From Deltaproteobacteria bacterium (lineage in GTDB: Bacteria; UBA10199; DSSB01; JACPFA01), in the NCBI GenBank assembly GCA_016183235.1, contig JACPFA010000028.1, positions 1 to 34,623 on the forward strand: DNA of 34,623 nucleotides, given 5' to 3'. The position numbers and the translations under genes were made by a program. Under the pieces are notes generated by a model, which saw only the letters and a list, made by a program, of their open reading frames with translations, was not told the DNA's origin and did not search any database. Positions 9,821 through 25,198 of this stretch are shown piece after piece; positions within the stretch are counted from its first letter, which is position 1, and each line of letters opens with the position of its first letter.

Positions 9821-11218
9821 ATGGATTTAACGCAAAGTCCCATAGCTTACATTCACAAGAATTTTGACCGTTTTTTAAAAGAACTACAGGCCTATGCTAG
9901 AATTCCTAGCATTAGCGCCCCAGGTTTTCCAAAAGAACCCTTGGAGGCTTCCGCTCAGTGGACAGCACAGCGCATGCAACAAGCGGGGCTCTGTAATGTA
10001 GAGTTGTTGCGGGTTTCTGATGCGCCTCCCTTTGTTTATGGAGAATGGCTCAAGGCTCCTGGCAAACCTACGGTGTTGTTATATGCCCATTACGATGTGC
10101 AACCCCCCGGGCGCGAGGCCTATTGGAAAAGCTCGCCTTTTGAGCCGCAAATTCGGGAAGGCAGGCTTTATGGCCGAGGCACGGCCGATGATAAAGCCGG
10201 TGGTATGATGCATTTAGCCGCTATCGAGGCCTATCTTAAAACAGCAGGTGAGCTTCCCGTGAACATTCGTTTTATTATTGAAGGCGAAGAAGAGGTGGGG
10301 AGCATTCATCTGCAAGATTTTTTAAAATTTTATCAAGAGCGCCTTCAAGCTGATGTTATGGTACTGACCGATACTGCTAACCTCGATGTTGGCCTGCCTT
10401 CAATTACTTACCGTTTGCGTGGCTTGGTTGATGCCATCGTCGAAGTGCGCACCCTCGATCACCCCGTGCATAGTGGCATGTGGGGTGGGCCAGTGATCGA
10501 TGCACTCACCGCATTAAATCAGGTTTTATCACGCTTAGTCACACGAGAGGGCAAGATTGCTATTCCCGGTTTTTGTGATGACGTTGCTTTAATTTCTAAA
10601 ACAGAACAACAACAATTACAGCGCCTACCTTTTGCAGACGAAAAATTTCGTCGAGAAGTCGGAGCTGTTGCTTCTTTACAATGGGCGGGTGATTCCCAAA
10701 AAAGTGTGTATGAAAAAATTTGGTGTGAGCCGGCCTTAGCTATTTTAGGCGTAGATGCCCCCAGCGTTGCTACGACTAGCAATCAAATTGTGGAGTGGGC
10801 GCGGGCCAAGATTTCAATTCGTATCGTGAACGATCAAGATCCAAAAAAAATGTTAAGGTTGTTGTGTGATTTTTTACAACAAGAGCCACCCTTTGGCTGC
10901 GAGGTTAAAGCCACCGCTGGTGCAGCCGGTGACCCTTGGAAAGGTGATATTGAGGGCCCAGCATTTAGGGTGGCCCAAAGGGCCTTGGCTAAAGGTTACG
11001 GGCGTGAACCGGTATTTATTGGCTGTGGGGGCTCGATTCCTTTTGTAAAACCACTTACCGACGCATTTCCCAACATGCCGGCCTTACTCATTGGGGTAGA
11101 AGATCCTTACACCAATGCCCACGGTGAAAACGAGAGTTTGCATATTGAAGATTGGAAAAAGGGAATTTTATCCGCGGTTTATTTATATAAAGAGCTTGCT
11201 GCGCAGAGTTCATCGTAA
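9821..11218 (+). CDS. M20-family dipeptidase/deacylase
   Basis: A 465-residue di-zinc peptidase of the M20 (ArgE/DapE/CPG2) family, closest in pattern to the dipeptidase branch. Visible ligands are His90 in YAHYDVQP, Asp123 in GRGTADDK, the glutamates of EGEEEVGS (156-158, catalytic base plus bridging residue), Asp184 in LTDTAN and a late His in NAHGENE. The central lid/dimerisation domain is present (HPVHSGMWGG). Substrate is probably a dipeptide or N-acyl amino acid. I chose the ATG at 9821; a TTG at 9800 is alternative. The C terminus ends LAAQSSS inside a 32-bp inverted repeat shared with the convergent gene, so the last residues and stop codon are element-derived on one side or the other. 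Confidence 0.9.
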   Translation: MDLTQSPIAYIHKNFDRFLKELQAYARIPSISAPGFPKEPLEASAQWTAQRMQQAGLCNVELLRVSDAPPFVYGEWLKAPGKPTVLLYAHYDVQPPGREAYWKSSPFEPQIREGRLYGRGTADDKAGGMMHLAAIEAYLKTAGELPVNIRFIIEGEEEVGSIHLQDFLKFYQERLQADVMVLTDTANLDVGLPSITYRLRGLVDAIVEVRTLDHPVHSGMWGGPVIDALTALNQVLSRLVTREGKIAIPGFCDDVALISKTEQQQLQRLPFADEKFRREVGAVASLQWAGDSQKSVYEKIWCEPALAILGVDAPSVATTSNQIVEWARAKISIRIVNDQDPKKMLRLLCDFLQQEPPFGCEVKATAGAAGDPWKGDIEGPAFRVAQRALAKGYGREPVFIGCGGSIPFVKPLTDAFPNMPALLIGVEDPYTNAHGENESLHIEDWKKGILSAVYLYKELAAQSSS

Positions 11219-11338
11219 TCAACGGGTGACCCGGGCAGGGGGCCCCCCACCAGCGCGCAGTCCTGCTTTGAGGACGAGCACTGCTGGGGGAAAGCCCGGG
11301 GCCGGGCCCGTTGATTACGATGAACTCTGCGCAGCAAG
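11195..11338. repeat. Palindromic element with 32-bp perfect arms spanning two gene ends
   Basis: Arms at 11195-11226 and 11307-11338 are perfect reverse complements. The GC-rich centre holds a nested hairpin (CCCCCACCAG near 11244 against CTGCTGGGGG near 11281). Each arm contains the last codons and the stop of one of two convergent genes, at mirror positions (11216-11218 and 11315-11317). The centre shares GACCC..GGCAGGGG and GGGGCCGGGCCCG with the hairpin at 23101-23159, whose arms are unrelated. It could also terminate transcription from both sides. Confidence 0.92.
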
Positions 11339-11620
11339 TCCTTTCAATAGCTTAAAAGTATAAATGCCCGTGTTGTGGCCATCGCTCCAAATAATTTGAA
11401 TGGCGTAGTGCCCTACGATTTTTATGTCTTTAATATCAATGCTGGGATTAATCATATTTTTTTGGACACGTTTTTCCCGCGTCCATTCGTCAACACACAA
11501 GGCACAAGGGCACGCGGCCCTTAAATCAACAAAGGGGTAAGAAGTTTGAGTGCCATCTGCCCAATCAATGGTTAGGGTATGGTTGGCACTTCGGGCAATT
11601 TGTTTAGGAATTATTTCCAT
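11315..11620 (-). CDS. DUF971 (GBBH-like N-terminal domain) protein
   Basis: A 101-residue single-domain protein. WADGTQTSYPFVDLR followed by CPCALC (Cys37, 39, 42) and then IVGHYAIQIIWSDGHNTGIYTF is the signature of the DUF971 domain, also found at the N terminus of gamma-butyrobetaine hydroxylase, where it binds zinc. Stand-alone copies are widespread and often occur near iron-sulfur assembly genes; function is unsettled. The usual ending after GIYTF is replaced by KLLKGLAAQSSS, whose last seven residues equal the C terminus of the convergent M20 peptidase because both lie in the inverted repeat. Stop codon at 11315. It lies 3 bp beyond the winged-helix gene on the same strand. Confidence 0.88.
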   Translation of the reverse strand: MEIIPKQIARSANHTLTIDWADGTQTSYPFVDLRAACPCALCVDEWTREKRVQKNMINPSIDIKDIKIVGHYAIQIIWSDGHNTGIYTFKLLKGLAAQSSS

Positions 11621-13012: not shown

Positions 13013-13399
13013 CTACCAAATGGTTTCTACGTGGGGATATTCAATGAGTCTTTCGTCTTTTGTGACAAGTTGGCAGGAATGTTTTTTTGCGGTAGCAACT
13101 AAAAAACGATCAGCAGGATCTTGGTGCAACTTACCTGGTAAGCGGGTACTCAACACCGCAATCTCTGGGGTTAATTCCAGAGCGAAGATTTTTGGAAAAG
13201 AGAGTGCTTTCTGGACCCATTCTTCAACATCGCGATCCAACGAAAGTCTTCCTTTTTCAATCAGCATGGCAACTTCCCAACAAGAAATTACGGACACACC
13301 CAGGCTTTCTTCTTTTTCAATTGCTCGCAGCGCTTTCTGAGAAAGTTTGATTGGATTATGGATCCACCATAACCAAACGTGGGTATCCAGCAGGATCAC
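13013..13399 (-). CDS. PIN-domain toxin (VapC-like), second copy
   Basis: A 128-residue PIN ribonuclease: ILLDTHVWLWW at the N terminus with the first catalytic Asp, ISCWEVAML in the middle with the conserved Glu, and QDPADRFLVATA with the late Asp. I chose the GTG at 13399 because it overlaps the antitoxin stop in GTGA, has GGAGG 7 nt upstream and gives the usual N terminus M-ILLDTHVW; the ATG at 13414 would add five residues. The predicted product is a toxin cleaving RNA, restrained by the Phd-type protein encoded directly upstream. Only distantly similar to the PIN protein at 1659, so not a recent duplicate. Confidence 0.9.
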   Translation of the reverse strand: MILLDTHVWLWWIHNPIKLSQKALRAIEKEESLGVSVISCWEVAMLIEKGRLSLDRDVEEWVQKALSFPKIFALELTPEIAVLSTRLPGKLHQDPADRFLVATAKKHSCQLVTKDERLIEYPHVETIW

Positions 13400-13626
13400 C
13401 TCATTGCCTCCCATTCCACCTCAATGGGAGAAATAAGATCCCCTTCATAGATAATCGACCCTCTTAATTCATGGTCTTTTAGAGAATGATTTTTTGTTTT
13501 AAGGGGGATCACTTCGGCAATGGGTTTGCCCCGTTTGGTGATAATAAGCCGTTCTTTTTTTGTTCTTACCCGCTCTAGGAGCGATAGGCACTTCGATTTA
13601 AACTCTCCCACGGCAATGGTCTTCAT
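13396..13626 (-). CDS. Phd/YefM-family antitoxin, second copy
   Basis: A 76-residue protein: KTIAVGEFKSKCLSLLERV, then ERLIITKRGKPIAEVIPL, the classic Phd/YefM N-terminal DNA-binding fold, and a C-terminal tail (SLKDHELRGSIIYEGDLISP) typical of the toxin-binding part in PIN-associated members. I chose the ATG at 13626, spaced 6 nt from GAGG; two ATGs are adjacent and a longer reading from 13650 is possible. First gene of a coupled pair with the PIN toxin. Unlike the other TA modules here it has a clear ribosome-binding site. Confidence 0.88.
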   Translation of the reverse strand: MKTIAVGEFKSKCLSLLERVRTKKERLIITKRGKPIAEVIPLKTKNHSLKDHELRGSIIYEGDLISPIEVEWEAMR

Positions 13627-13638
13627 CATGAACCTCTT

Positions 13639-13676
13639 GACTATAGTCATAGTATCATAGTCATCTATAAAGACAA
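13639..13676 (-). promoter_or_regulatory. Promoter/operator of the second Phd-PIN operon
   Basis: On the minus strand TTGTCT (13676-13671), 16-bp spacer, TACTAT (13654-13649) forms a promoter. ATAGTCAT is repeated directly at 13643-13650 and 13657-13664, and GACTATAGTC (13639-13648) is a perfect palindrome. These iterated sites overlap the -10 region and probably bind the antitoxin. Confidence 0.55.
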
Positions 13677-15074: not shown

Positions 15075-15200
15075 AAAATTAAACTCCCAATCAAAACGGG
15101 CCCCTAATCATTCAATTTATCGGCAAAAACACACTTAAAGTTGCTCTAAATGATCTTTTATTAAAAAAGTATACATTGTCTTGTTGGAAAATGCATTTTC

Positions 15201-15272
15201 TGTCATCCCTGCGGAGGCAGGGATCCAGATATCTAACTTTAGGGCTGGGTCCCTGCCTGCGCAGGGATGACA
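15201..15272. repeat. 72-bp palindromic repeat (TGTCATCC type) upstream of trmFO
   Basis: TGTCATCCCTGCGGAGGCAG starts the unit and CTGCCTGCGCAGGGATGACA closes it, giving arms of about 20 bp with few mismatches. It lies 33 bp before the trmFO start codon and belongs to the family also seen at 18322 and inside dprA at 24961. The rest of the 15075-15305 gap holds nothing recognisable. Confidence 0.9.
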
Positions 15273-15305
15273 AGAAATGTATTTTGATCTAAGGCTGTTT
15301 TAGCT

Positions 15306-18274: not shown

Positions 18275-18321
18275 CCAATTAAACAGATTATAGTATTTTA
18301 ACTTTTTGATAGTATGTTTTC

Positions 18322-18398
18322 TGTCATCCTCGCGAAAGCGGGGATCCAGTTCTGTAAGTGGGGTTAAGCACTGGATCCCCGCTTTCGCGGGGATGACA
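18322..18398. repeat. 77-bp near-perfect palindrome before hslU
   Basis: TGTCATCCTCGCGAAAGCGG opens the unit and CCGCTTTCGCGGGGATGACA closes it; arms extend through GGATCCAGT, giving about 29 paired bases around a short loop. Same terminus type as 15201 and 24961. It ends 37 bp before the hslU ATG. Confidence 0.92.
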
Positions 18399-18435
18399 GC
18401 CTATTTAAAAGTTAAAACACTATAGAGGTATTCTA

Positions 18436-21637: not shown

Positions 21638-21782
21638 TTTCTCTTCCCGAAGAACGAATTACGAAGAACGTGAACGAAAATTTGGCGGATTCGAACCGTC
21701 GAAAGAAAGACAAAGATCGCAATTCGTTGACGTTTTTCGTTCTTCGGGCAAAAAATTTGTCTTAAGCCAAATTTTTTGTGCC
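21638..21782. repeat. ~145-bp dispersed repeat, copy A
   Basis: Together with copy B (22520-22649) this forms a direct-repeat pair around the BrnTA-like genes; copies agree at about nine of ten positions, with copy A carrying about 14 extra bases near its left end. Inside, CCCGAAGAACGA (21646-21657) pairs with TCGTTCTTCGGG (21737-21748), and AAAAAATTTG pairs with CAAATTTTTT at the right end, so it can fold into two hairpins. The remaining 21563-21800 gap holds nothing else. Confidence 0.9.
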
Positions 21783-22519: not shown

Positions 22520-22649
22520 TTTCTCTTCCTGAAGAACGTGAACGAAAATTTGGCGCATTCGAATCGTTGAAAGAAAGACAAAGATCGTAATTCGTTCACG
22601 TTTTTCGTTCGTCGGGCAAAAAATTTGTCTTAAGCCAAATTTTTATGCC
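22520..22649. repeat. ~130-bp dispersed repeat, copy B, abutting tRNA-Arg
   Basis: Direct copy of the repeat at 21638-21782 in the same orientation, lacking about 14 bases. Its right end touches the 3' end of tRNA-Arg (22646). The AT-rich hairpin ending in a T-run could terminate the tRNA transcript, although it is read here from the opposite side. Confidence 0.9.
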
Positions 22650-22718
22650 CCCGGCATGAATCGAACATGCGACCAACGGTTTAGGAAACCGCTGCTCTAT
22701 CCACTGAGCTACGAGGGC
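22646..22718 (-). tRNA. tRNA-Arg (anticodon CCT)
   Basis: On the minus strand acceptor GCCCTCG pairs with CGGGGGC (one G-U), the D-arm is AGCTCAGTGGATAGAGC, the anticodon stem GCGGT/ACCGT encloses TTCCTAA (CCT at 34-36), and the T-arm loop is TTCGATT. Discriminator A; CCA not encoded. The first 18 nt are duplicated 130 bp upstream at 22831-22848. Confidence 0.95.
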
Positions 22719-22848
22719 GAATTGCAACCTCGATCGTTATCTCATGGTTTAACTCAAGGGCAAAGTAGCTTTTTATACTCCGCAAAATCTACGATTTTGC
22801 TGCGCGGCTGGAGTAAATCCAGCCTTGCTGCCACTGAGCTACGAGGGC
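22701..22848. repeat. 18-bp tRNA-Arg 5'-end echo with 112-bp hairpin-bearing insert
   Basis: CCACTGAGCTACGAGGGC occurs at 22701-22718, the 5' end of tRNA-Arg, and identically at 22831-22848. The 112 bp between contain two hairpins (GCAAAATC..GATTTTGC and CTGGAGTAAATCCAG). This mirrors the duplication beside tRNA-Lys at 2258-2338. Confidence 0.85.
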
Positions 22849-23100
22849 TATTTTTAGGACGCGCTAGTCCTTAACAACGACATGAGTAAAAGTAAAATTA
22901 ATAAAATTTAATGATTTCAATTAGATAGTTTTTTTAGATTTACTCCGTCTCATCTTTCTTAGAAAATAAGTTGAGGGGAAATAAATCTTGCTTGAGCTTG
23001 TTAAGGTCTAGCTCATTAAGGAGCGAATAGTTGATTCGTTTTAATATGGTTTTATACACAACTTATGTACTATTTTGTCGAACATAAACAATATATCTCA
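22849..23100. other. AT-rich intergenic region, no gene seen
   Basis: No open reading frame or RNA gene is supported here. The only structure is a short imperfect direct repeat, AGCTTGTTAAGG (22995) and AGCTCATTAAGG (23010). With the hairpin at 23101 and the flanking repeats, about 500 bp between tRNA-Arg and the secreted-protein gene are non-coding. Confidence 0.5.
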
Positions 23101-23159
23101 TAGAAGATATAAAAAGCGGCGACCCAAGGCAGGGGCCGGGCCCGTTTTTATATCTTCTA
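23101..23159. repeat. Hairpin with 15-bp perfect arms and GC-rich core
   Basis: TAGAAGATATAAAAA (23101-23115) is perfectly mirrored by TTTTTATATCTTCTA (23145-23159). The core GACCCAAGGCAGGGG-CCGGGCCCG matches core pieces of the palindrome at 11195-11338, but the arms are unrelated. With A-run before and T-run after it could act as a bidirectional terminator. Confidence 0.85.
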
Positions 23160-24262: not shown

Positions 24263-25198
24263 ATGGCCCATCCCCTCAAGAAAATTCTAGTGGTGACGCC
24301 GGGGCATTCTCATTACCCGGCTAGGTTACTACCCTTATCCGGTCATCCCAAAAATTTATATCTGTTAGGTGATCTGCAACTTTTGCAAGGTCGACCCATG
24401 ATTGCAGTCGTGGGTACGCGCCGCGCTAGCCATTATGCAGTCTCGATCACCCGTCGTTTGATTCAACAAATGAAACCTTGGCATCCGACCATTGTCAGTG
24501 GCATGGCCATGGGAATCGATGCTGTTGCCCAGCAAGCTGCGTTAGACCATGGATTGAAAACCATTGGGGTGTTGGGGTGCCCGGTGGATGTTGTTTATCC
24601 CCAACAAAATGAAGCTTTGTATACACGAGTGAAACGTGAGGGGTTGCTAGTATCCGAATTTGCTCCAGGTAGTCCGATTTACGCCAGTCATTTCCCAGCA
24701 CGCAATCGGATTATTGCAGGGCTCAGCGATGCAGTTATTGTAGTTGAAGCACCCGAAAAAAGTGGGGCCCTGATTACGGCAGGCTTTGCAGCCGATTATG
24801 ATCGCGCGGTTTTTGTAGTGCCAGGTCCTATTAGCATGCAAAAAAATTTAGGCGGGCATCGGTTGATTGAAGATGGGGCGCACCTTTTATATGATGTTGA
24901 AGAAATGTTTAAAATTTTGAAATTCGAAAAAACTTTTGCCCACCCACGTCATCCCGGCATTGTCATCCCTGCGAAGGCAGGGACCCATGATATCGGAGCC
25001 ATCTCCCGTGTCTTAACTTTCTTAACTGCCGAACCTATTCATATTGACAAAATAATCACAATGAGTCATGAGCCGCCGAATCGTGTTATGGCTCTATTAA
25101 GCGAAGCGACCCTAGCTGGCATGGTTGAAGAGTTGCCAGGTAAATTTTTTGTAAGGACAAATGTCATCCTCCGCGCAGGCGGGGGAGCCATATTATGA
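24263..25198 (+). CDS. dprA: DNA-processing protein DprA
   Basis: A 311-residue Rossmann-fold protein that loads RecA on incoming single-stranded DNA. MIAVVGTRRAS (46-56), VSGMAMGIDAVAQQAAL (78-94), GCPVDVVYPQQN (105-116) and FPARNRIIAGLSDAVIVVEA (144-163) are the family signatures. The N-terminal SAM-like domain common in DprA is missing or very short. The winged-helix domain (about 245-298) remains. The linker residues 226-244, reading PGIVIPAKAGTHD, are translated from a palindromic repeat, and the C-terminal VILRAGGGAIL from a second partial copy. ATGA overlap with topA. Confidence 0.93.
   Translation: MAHPLKKILVVTPGHSHYPARLLPLSGHPKNLYLLGDLQLLQGRPMIAVVGTRRASHYAVSITRRLIQQMKPWHPTIVSGMAMGIDAVAQQAALDHGLKTIGVLGCPVDVVYPQQNEALYTRVKREGLLVSEFAPGSPIYASHFPARNRIIAGLSDAVIVVEAPEKSGALITAGFAADYDRAVFVVPGPISMQKNLGGHRLIEDGAHLLYDVEEMFKILKFEKTFAHPRHPGIVIPAKAGTHDIGAISRVLTFLTAEPIHIDKIITMSHEPPNRVMALLSEATLAGMVEELPGKFFVRTNVILRAGGGAIL
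24948..24990. repeat. Palindromic repeat inserted in the dprA reading frame
   Basis: TGTCATCCCTGCGAAGGCAG (24961-24980) followed by GGGACCCATGATATC matches the left half of the unit at 15201-15272; a further GTCATCCCGGCAT sits just before it. It is read in frame as PGIVIPAKAGTHD in the DprA interdomain linker. A second partial unit, GTCATCCTCCGCGCAGGCGG (25163-25182), encodes the DprA C terminus. Confidence 0.88.

Follow-up and report, generated by a model that had tools for sequence, protein, structure and literature searches.

An M20-family peptidase and a DUF971 protein, encoded by neighbouring convergent genes, terminate in the same seven residues and the same stop codon (LAAQSSS-TAA). 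This shared tail is very probably explained by a mobile palindromic element situated in a 24-nt overlap of the two genes. The element belongs to a family of dispersed repeats whose outer arms differ from copy to copy and nevertheless stay paired within each copy. The stretch of DNA analysed, referred to as the window, comprises 34,623 nt.

Palindrome and shared tail at the M20-DUF971 junction

The M20 gene (positions 9821–11218, plus strand), delineated by its open reading frame, a match to PF01546 and the ends of its orthologues, finishes with ...KELAAQSSS at 11218. The DUF971 gene (11315–11620, minus strand; 101 aa), delineated by its open reading frame, a match to PF06155 (now named GBBH-like_N) and the ends of its relatives, finishes with ...KGLAAQSSS at 11315. 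An inverted-repeat search of the window returned a repeat at 11184–11226/11307–11349 with arms that are 91% complementary. Within this repeat the longest perfect arms measure 32 nt each and are separated by a spacer of 80 nt. The left arm (11195–11226, plus strand) encodes the M20 tail together with its TAA (11216–11218), and the right arm (11307–11338, minus strand) the DUF971 tail together with its TAA (11315–11317), exactly as the preliminary description had it. The palindrome folds with −114.6 kcal/mol compared to a mean of −60.6 kcal/mol for shuffled sequences (z = −11.6), and chance is therefore excluded.

Neither protein family natively possesses this tail. The M20 orthologues L022 and L023 end with VHLYFEKFV* and VHLYFEDFE*, respectively. 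Relatives of the DUF971 protein end in part with LRKL*, while many continue with LRKLCPC or similar instead of LAAQ, and no DUF971 homologue in 22 genomes of the class ends with AAQSSS besides the one adjacent to M20.

Reconstruction of the junction

Excision in silico of exactly the 144 nt between 11195 and 11338, a segment without assigned strand, restores both gene ends. The M20 protein then closes with ...VYLYKESFQ*, which corresponds to the length of its orthologues and places the glutamate and the phenylalanine in register, and the DUF971 protein closes at a nearby stop with ...LLKGLFI*. The inferred ancestral stops are a TAG for M20 (11348–11350, plus strand), now located beyond the right arm within DUF971, and a TAA for DUF971 (11183–11185, minus strand), now located beyond the left arm within M20. 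In the reconstructed empty junction, ...GTTTATTTATATAAAGAGTCCTTTCAATAG, with KESFQ* and LKGLFI* as the respective ends, the convergent genes overlap by 24 nt. Excisions that take a few bases more or less of each arm yield worse ends. Among random 12-mers drawn from the window, a stop at the M20 codon in combination with a phenylalanine two codons before has a frequency of 0.0028. Independent support for clean insertion comes from copy L003, since its excision in silico rejoins AGGAGGTCAAACTATG, a Shine-Dalgarno sequence and start codon which are split by this copy. The ancestral overlap is a reconstruction from sequence, because no empty M20-DUF971 site was found among close relatives.

Very probably, a non-coding mobile palindrome, in which a conserved core of some 86 nt is enclosed by perfectly complementary arms peculiar to each copy, entered the 3' overlap and pushed the original stops of both genes to its far side. 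Owing to this displacement each gene would read into one arm and take its last residues from the element, and both would gain LAAQSSS and a stop because the arms are mutually inverted copies that were entered in the same phase. No source of the arms was found in target or donor. The earlier proposal that an element had replaced both gene ends thus holds with respect to the element at the junction, but not to the replacement, as the insertion into the overlap leaves nothing replaced.

Repeat family and distribution

The core of the element (11224–11309, plus strand; GGGTGACC...GGGCCC) matches a covariance model built from 13 copies with E = 1.3e-16. Six intact copies of the 86-nt core are present in the genome, the one at the M20-DUF971 junction and five others, in addition to two degraded ones. 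The inverted arms on either side of the core differ from one copy to the next; the search for further cores with other arms, proposed in the preliminary description, was thus positive, the arms being specific for each locus. One of the degraded copies lies within the same window (23101–23159, plus strand); it is internally deleted and has its own perfect arms of 15 nt (TAGAAGATATAAAAA). In the other one, L008 (G000:C25:9368-9421), another sequence (..CCTTCGCTTCGCTCAGGATAAACTCC..) takes the place of part of the core, while the outer 11-nt arms are kept.

Across the class, the covariance model matches about 150 sites in 19 of 46 genomes; the phylum-level set consists of the same 46 genomes. In the remaining 147 genomes of the 193-genome search, all outside the class, no match was obtained at E ≤ 1e-5. 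The core structure contains pairs with compensatory changes. Neither the M20-DUF971 copy nor other copies match Rfam, the family was not detected in plasmids, phages or viral contigs, and no description of it was found in the open-licence literature. In genome G001, pairs of oppositely oriented copies lie about 120–180 nt apart on contigs C1, C98 and C123 (L069, L070 and L073), perhaps as a composite unit.

Empty sites were found by comparison of three congeneric genomes, namely G002 and G007, which share about 93% identity, and G003, which is 70–83% identical. At three sites occupied in G002, G003 lacks the core as well as both arms, so that the arms do not represent a pre-existing palindrome; an older palindromic target or terminator was ruled out on these grounds. 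A target duplication is missing at the M20-DUF971 locus if the excision model holds, and the empty sites elsewhere are highly diverged.

Copy-specific arms that vary together

Among the 34 copies whose arms reach at least 15 nt, 846 of 870 arm pairs (97%) are of the Watson-Crick type. The same arm differs between copies of one genome by a mean of 9–14 edits over 17–24 nt (6.7 edits over 22 in G026), whereas the two arms within one copy differ by a mean of only 0.3–1.7 edits. For the G001/G002/G007 set, pairing amounts to 98% and drops to 48% when right arms are exchanged at random between copies; at least two pair types are present in 23 of the 24 arm columns. Among copies with near-identical cores, the arms are homologous but diverged in G002 and not recognizably homologous in G000 and G004.

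Between the orthologous copies G002:C8 and G007:C183, 9 of 26 arm positions are changed, each time in both arms and never on one side alone, which indicates that the arms were rewritten in concert. Their cores differ at 3 of 72 positions and their flanks are 93% identical. Similarly, the paralogues C26 and C5:3148 combine identical cores with three arm changes, each present in both arms, and in one orthologous pair some changes are best read as mirrored 3-nt indels. In the orthologous pair C26/C66 the sole arm change is single and one-sided, hence arm change is episodic. Deviations from pairing cluster beside the core. Read on the core strand, G.T outnumbers A.C among them by 14 to 1; this strand asymmetry is weak, because 6 of the 14 G.T fall at the single pair adjoining the core.

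The arms of several copies have therefore changed together and not independently. This backs the earlier suggestion of ongoing arm correction; the perfect identity of the arms, taken before as a sign of a recent event, does not imply recency. The most likely and simplest cause is inferred to be template switching at the hairpin, by which one arm would be copied onto the other, and selection for a stable hairpin possibly aids the matching. Capture of the arms from elsewhere in the genome was rejected, as strong matches occur only at the own loci of the arms in the four genomes searched. It seems unlikely that the element creates a fresh, perfectly matched pair of arms whenever it inserts, or renews its arms in bursts, with sequence from neither donor nor target; such a process would make it a mobile hairpin whose arms are actively diversified.

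Copies between and inside genes

Of 129 copies examined, 52 are located within open reading frames that encode 150 aa or more and reach 100 nt beyond the copy on either side, 32 on the same strand as the frame and 20 on the opposite one. Copies are found in frame within housekeeping proteins for 17 of 22 cases in G017 and 9 of 10 in G032, whereas in G000, G002, G014 and G028 they are mostly intergenic or at gene ends. Across genomes the genes with in-frame copies include those for HemB, MnmE, HisF, PurL, YggS, AccC, RsmE, TruA, Der and MutL, and the insertion in hisF is common to G032 and G037. Compared to solved homologues, the inserts comprise 26 aa in MnmE, 27 in HemB, 29 in HisF, 29 in RsmE and about 33 in PurL.

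For PurL, HisF and RsmE, all from other genera, the insert corresponds to about the core and one arm or less, and one arm there thus seems to be largely native; the origin of the arms may differ between copies. In PurL of G017, a flank encoding GATIDFD is faced by an inverted near-copy encoding VSQNRQW, with a net insert of 30–33 codons. The left side is conserved and the right side resembles it in inverted form, and copying of a flank may occur here, unlike at the M20-DUF971 locus.

Other features of the window

A further long palindrome is found near the contig end (34143–34365), with 46-nt arms that are 96% complementary and 131 nt apart, an inner hairpin, and a part resembling the tandem repeat at 113–182. 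A hairpin repeat of another type (TGTCATCCCTGCG..GCAGGGATCCA) is dispersed in the window at 15188–15285, 18317–18399 and 24956–24996. A tRNA-Arg (CCT) is located at 22646–22718, and its end (CCACTGAGCTACGAGGGC) recurs at 22829–22853, possibly as an integration scar. Two 114-nt direct repeats (21663–21776 and 22531–22644) are 95% identical and 868 nt apart. Two adjacent small open reading frames (13013–13650) may encode a PIN-domain toxin and its antitoxin, and the segment 32491–33768 contains repetitive coding repeats of the DxDxDG type, similar to thrombospondin type-3 calcium repeats.

Alternative explanations

A different origin of the shared tail, one of the two options in the preliminary description, is inverted copying of one gene end onto the other; with fold-back or template switching at a hairpin as the mechanism, one tail would be native and the other overwritten. 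Hairpin arms are known to arise and to be repaired by template switching (PMC8794818). The near-copied flank and small net insert in PurL of G017, and the inserts in HisF and RsmE, which amount to the core and about 15 nt, fit such a process, as does the continuation of many DUF971 relatives with LRKLCPC or similar. However, a native arm should cause the joint excision of both arms and core to fail, whereas it gives M20 an end like that of its orthologues and DUF971 a stop, and the relatives of both proteins end without the tail. Inverted copying of a gene end is hence distinctly unlikely at this locus. That a fold-back read was joined to the contig is a concern with a draft genome of 51 contigs, palindromes being prone to chimeras, but an artefact is extremely unlikely in view of cores with arms at over 120 loci, spread across 19 separate genomes, of orthologous sites in the genome pairs G002/G007 and G032/G037 and of copies in frame within housekeeping genes.

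The hairpin could be a domesticated functional RNA, a transcript end or mRNA stabilizer, with pairing kept purely by selection on the RNA through compensatory mutations. The very stable fold, the location of the copies in the source genome at gene ends and the excess of G.T deviations are in line with this, yet nearly half of the latter derive from the one pair next to the core, and many copies reside in open reading frames in either orientation. Moreover, the arms outpace the flanks in one orthologous pair and show mirrored indels, neither of which is predicted by stepwise compensation, and a role of RNA selection alone is quite unlikely. Mobilization as a REP-type repeat by a RAYT (Y1) transposase appears very unlikely. 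No mobility enzyme was identified in the transposase search, which addressed Y1_Tnp. Genes of this type are present in 37 of the 46 genomes, and many copies in G002 and G007 carry GGAG or GGTG at one foot. On the other hand, Y1_Tnp gave no match in G004, G007, G037, G039 and the copy-rich G017 (23 copies, 98% completeness), and because of G017 RAYT was rejected as an obligatory mobilizer. A GTAG tag at the arm ends was found in 8 of 129 copies, which is about chance level, and a CGTC tag in 3 of 129, with about 7 expected by chance.

Comparison with known systems

Palindromic selfish DNA inserted in frame is best known from Rickettsia. The family described here is a second and unrelated-looking one, dense in the housekeeping genes of an uncultured class, and its copies, orthologous pairs and empty sites suffice for studying the mode of insertion of such elements and their tolerance by proteins. 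The M20-DUF971 locus illustrates that one insertion can confer an identical new C-terminus on two unrelated proteins. The unusual part, and the most interesting point of the family, is the concerted, copy-specific arms, which make a long-standing question testable, namely whether it is selection or template-switch correction that maintains stems.

Rickettsia palindromic elements (RPE) are short palindromic repeats of about 100–150 nt without a known transposase. Their numerous copies are found in intergenic regions as well as in frame in genes for conserved proteins (PMC2229807, PMC10969869); in R. conorii, they are reported to carry a CGTC tag at one end (PMC3733652). Like RPE, the present family forms long stem-loops from a short palindromic repeat and occurs in frame in conserved genes (HemB, MnmE, HisF, PurL, RsmE, AccC, Der and MutL). 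In contrast to RPE, it belongs to a different phylum, lacks the CGTC tag and possesses copy-specific arms changing in concert instead of a shared terminal sequence. By this description the family would work like RPE and may be set beside them as an analogue, not as a demonstrated member. The bacterial MITEs (Correia/NEMIS, ERIC, RUP) are likewise small non-autonomous elements with inverted repeats, sometimes fused in frame. Their terminal repeats are common to all copies, whereas the outer arms differ here, and neither an autonomous partner, as judged by the Y1_Tnp search, nor, at the M20-DUF971 locus under the excision model, a target duplication was seen.

REPs, 20–40 bp long and equipped with a GTAG or CGTC tag (PMC3733652), resemble the family, as do BIMEs with RAYT, in being dispersed palindromes near gene ends, but differ from it by the tag, which is at chance level here, and by the Y1 transposases, which the copy-rich G017 lacks. 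Long perfect inverted repeats with both arms encoding protein have been reported for mitochondria of Nematomorpha (PMC6649704); unlike the present elements, these coding palindromes are located inside mitochondrial genes and do not form a dispersed element. Hairpins generated by template switching and quasipalindrome correction acquire perfect arms in one step and change on both sides in a matched manner (PMC8794818). The arms at the M20-DUF971 junction differ from such copies of a flank in that they were inserted, while PurL of G017 approximately fits. Template-switch correction has been described for host sequences and RNA genes; in the present case its substrate would be a mobile repeat family.
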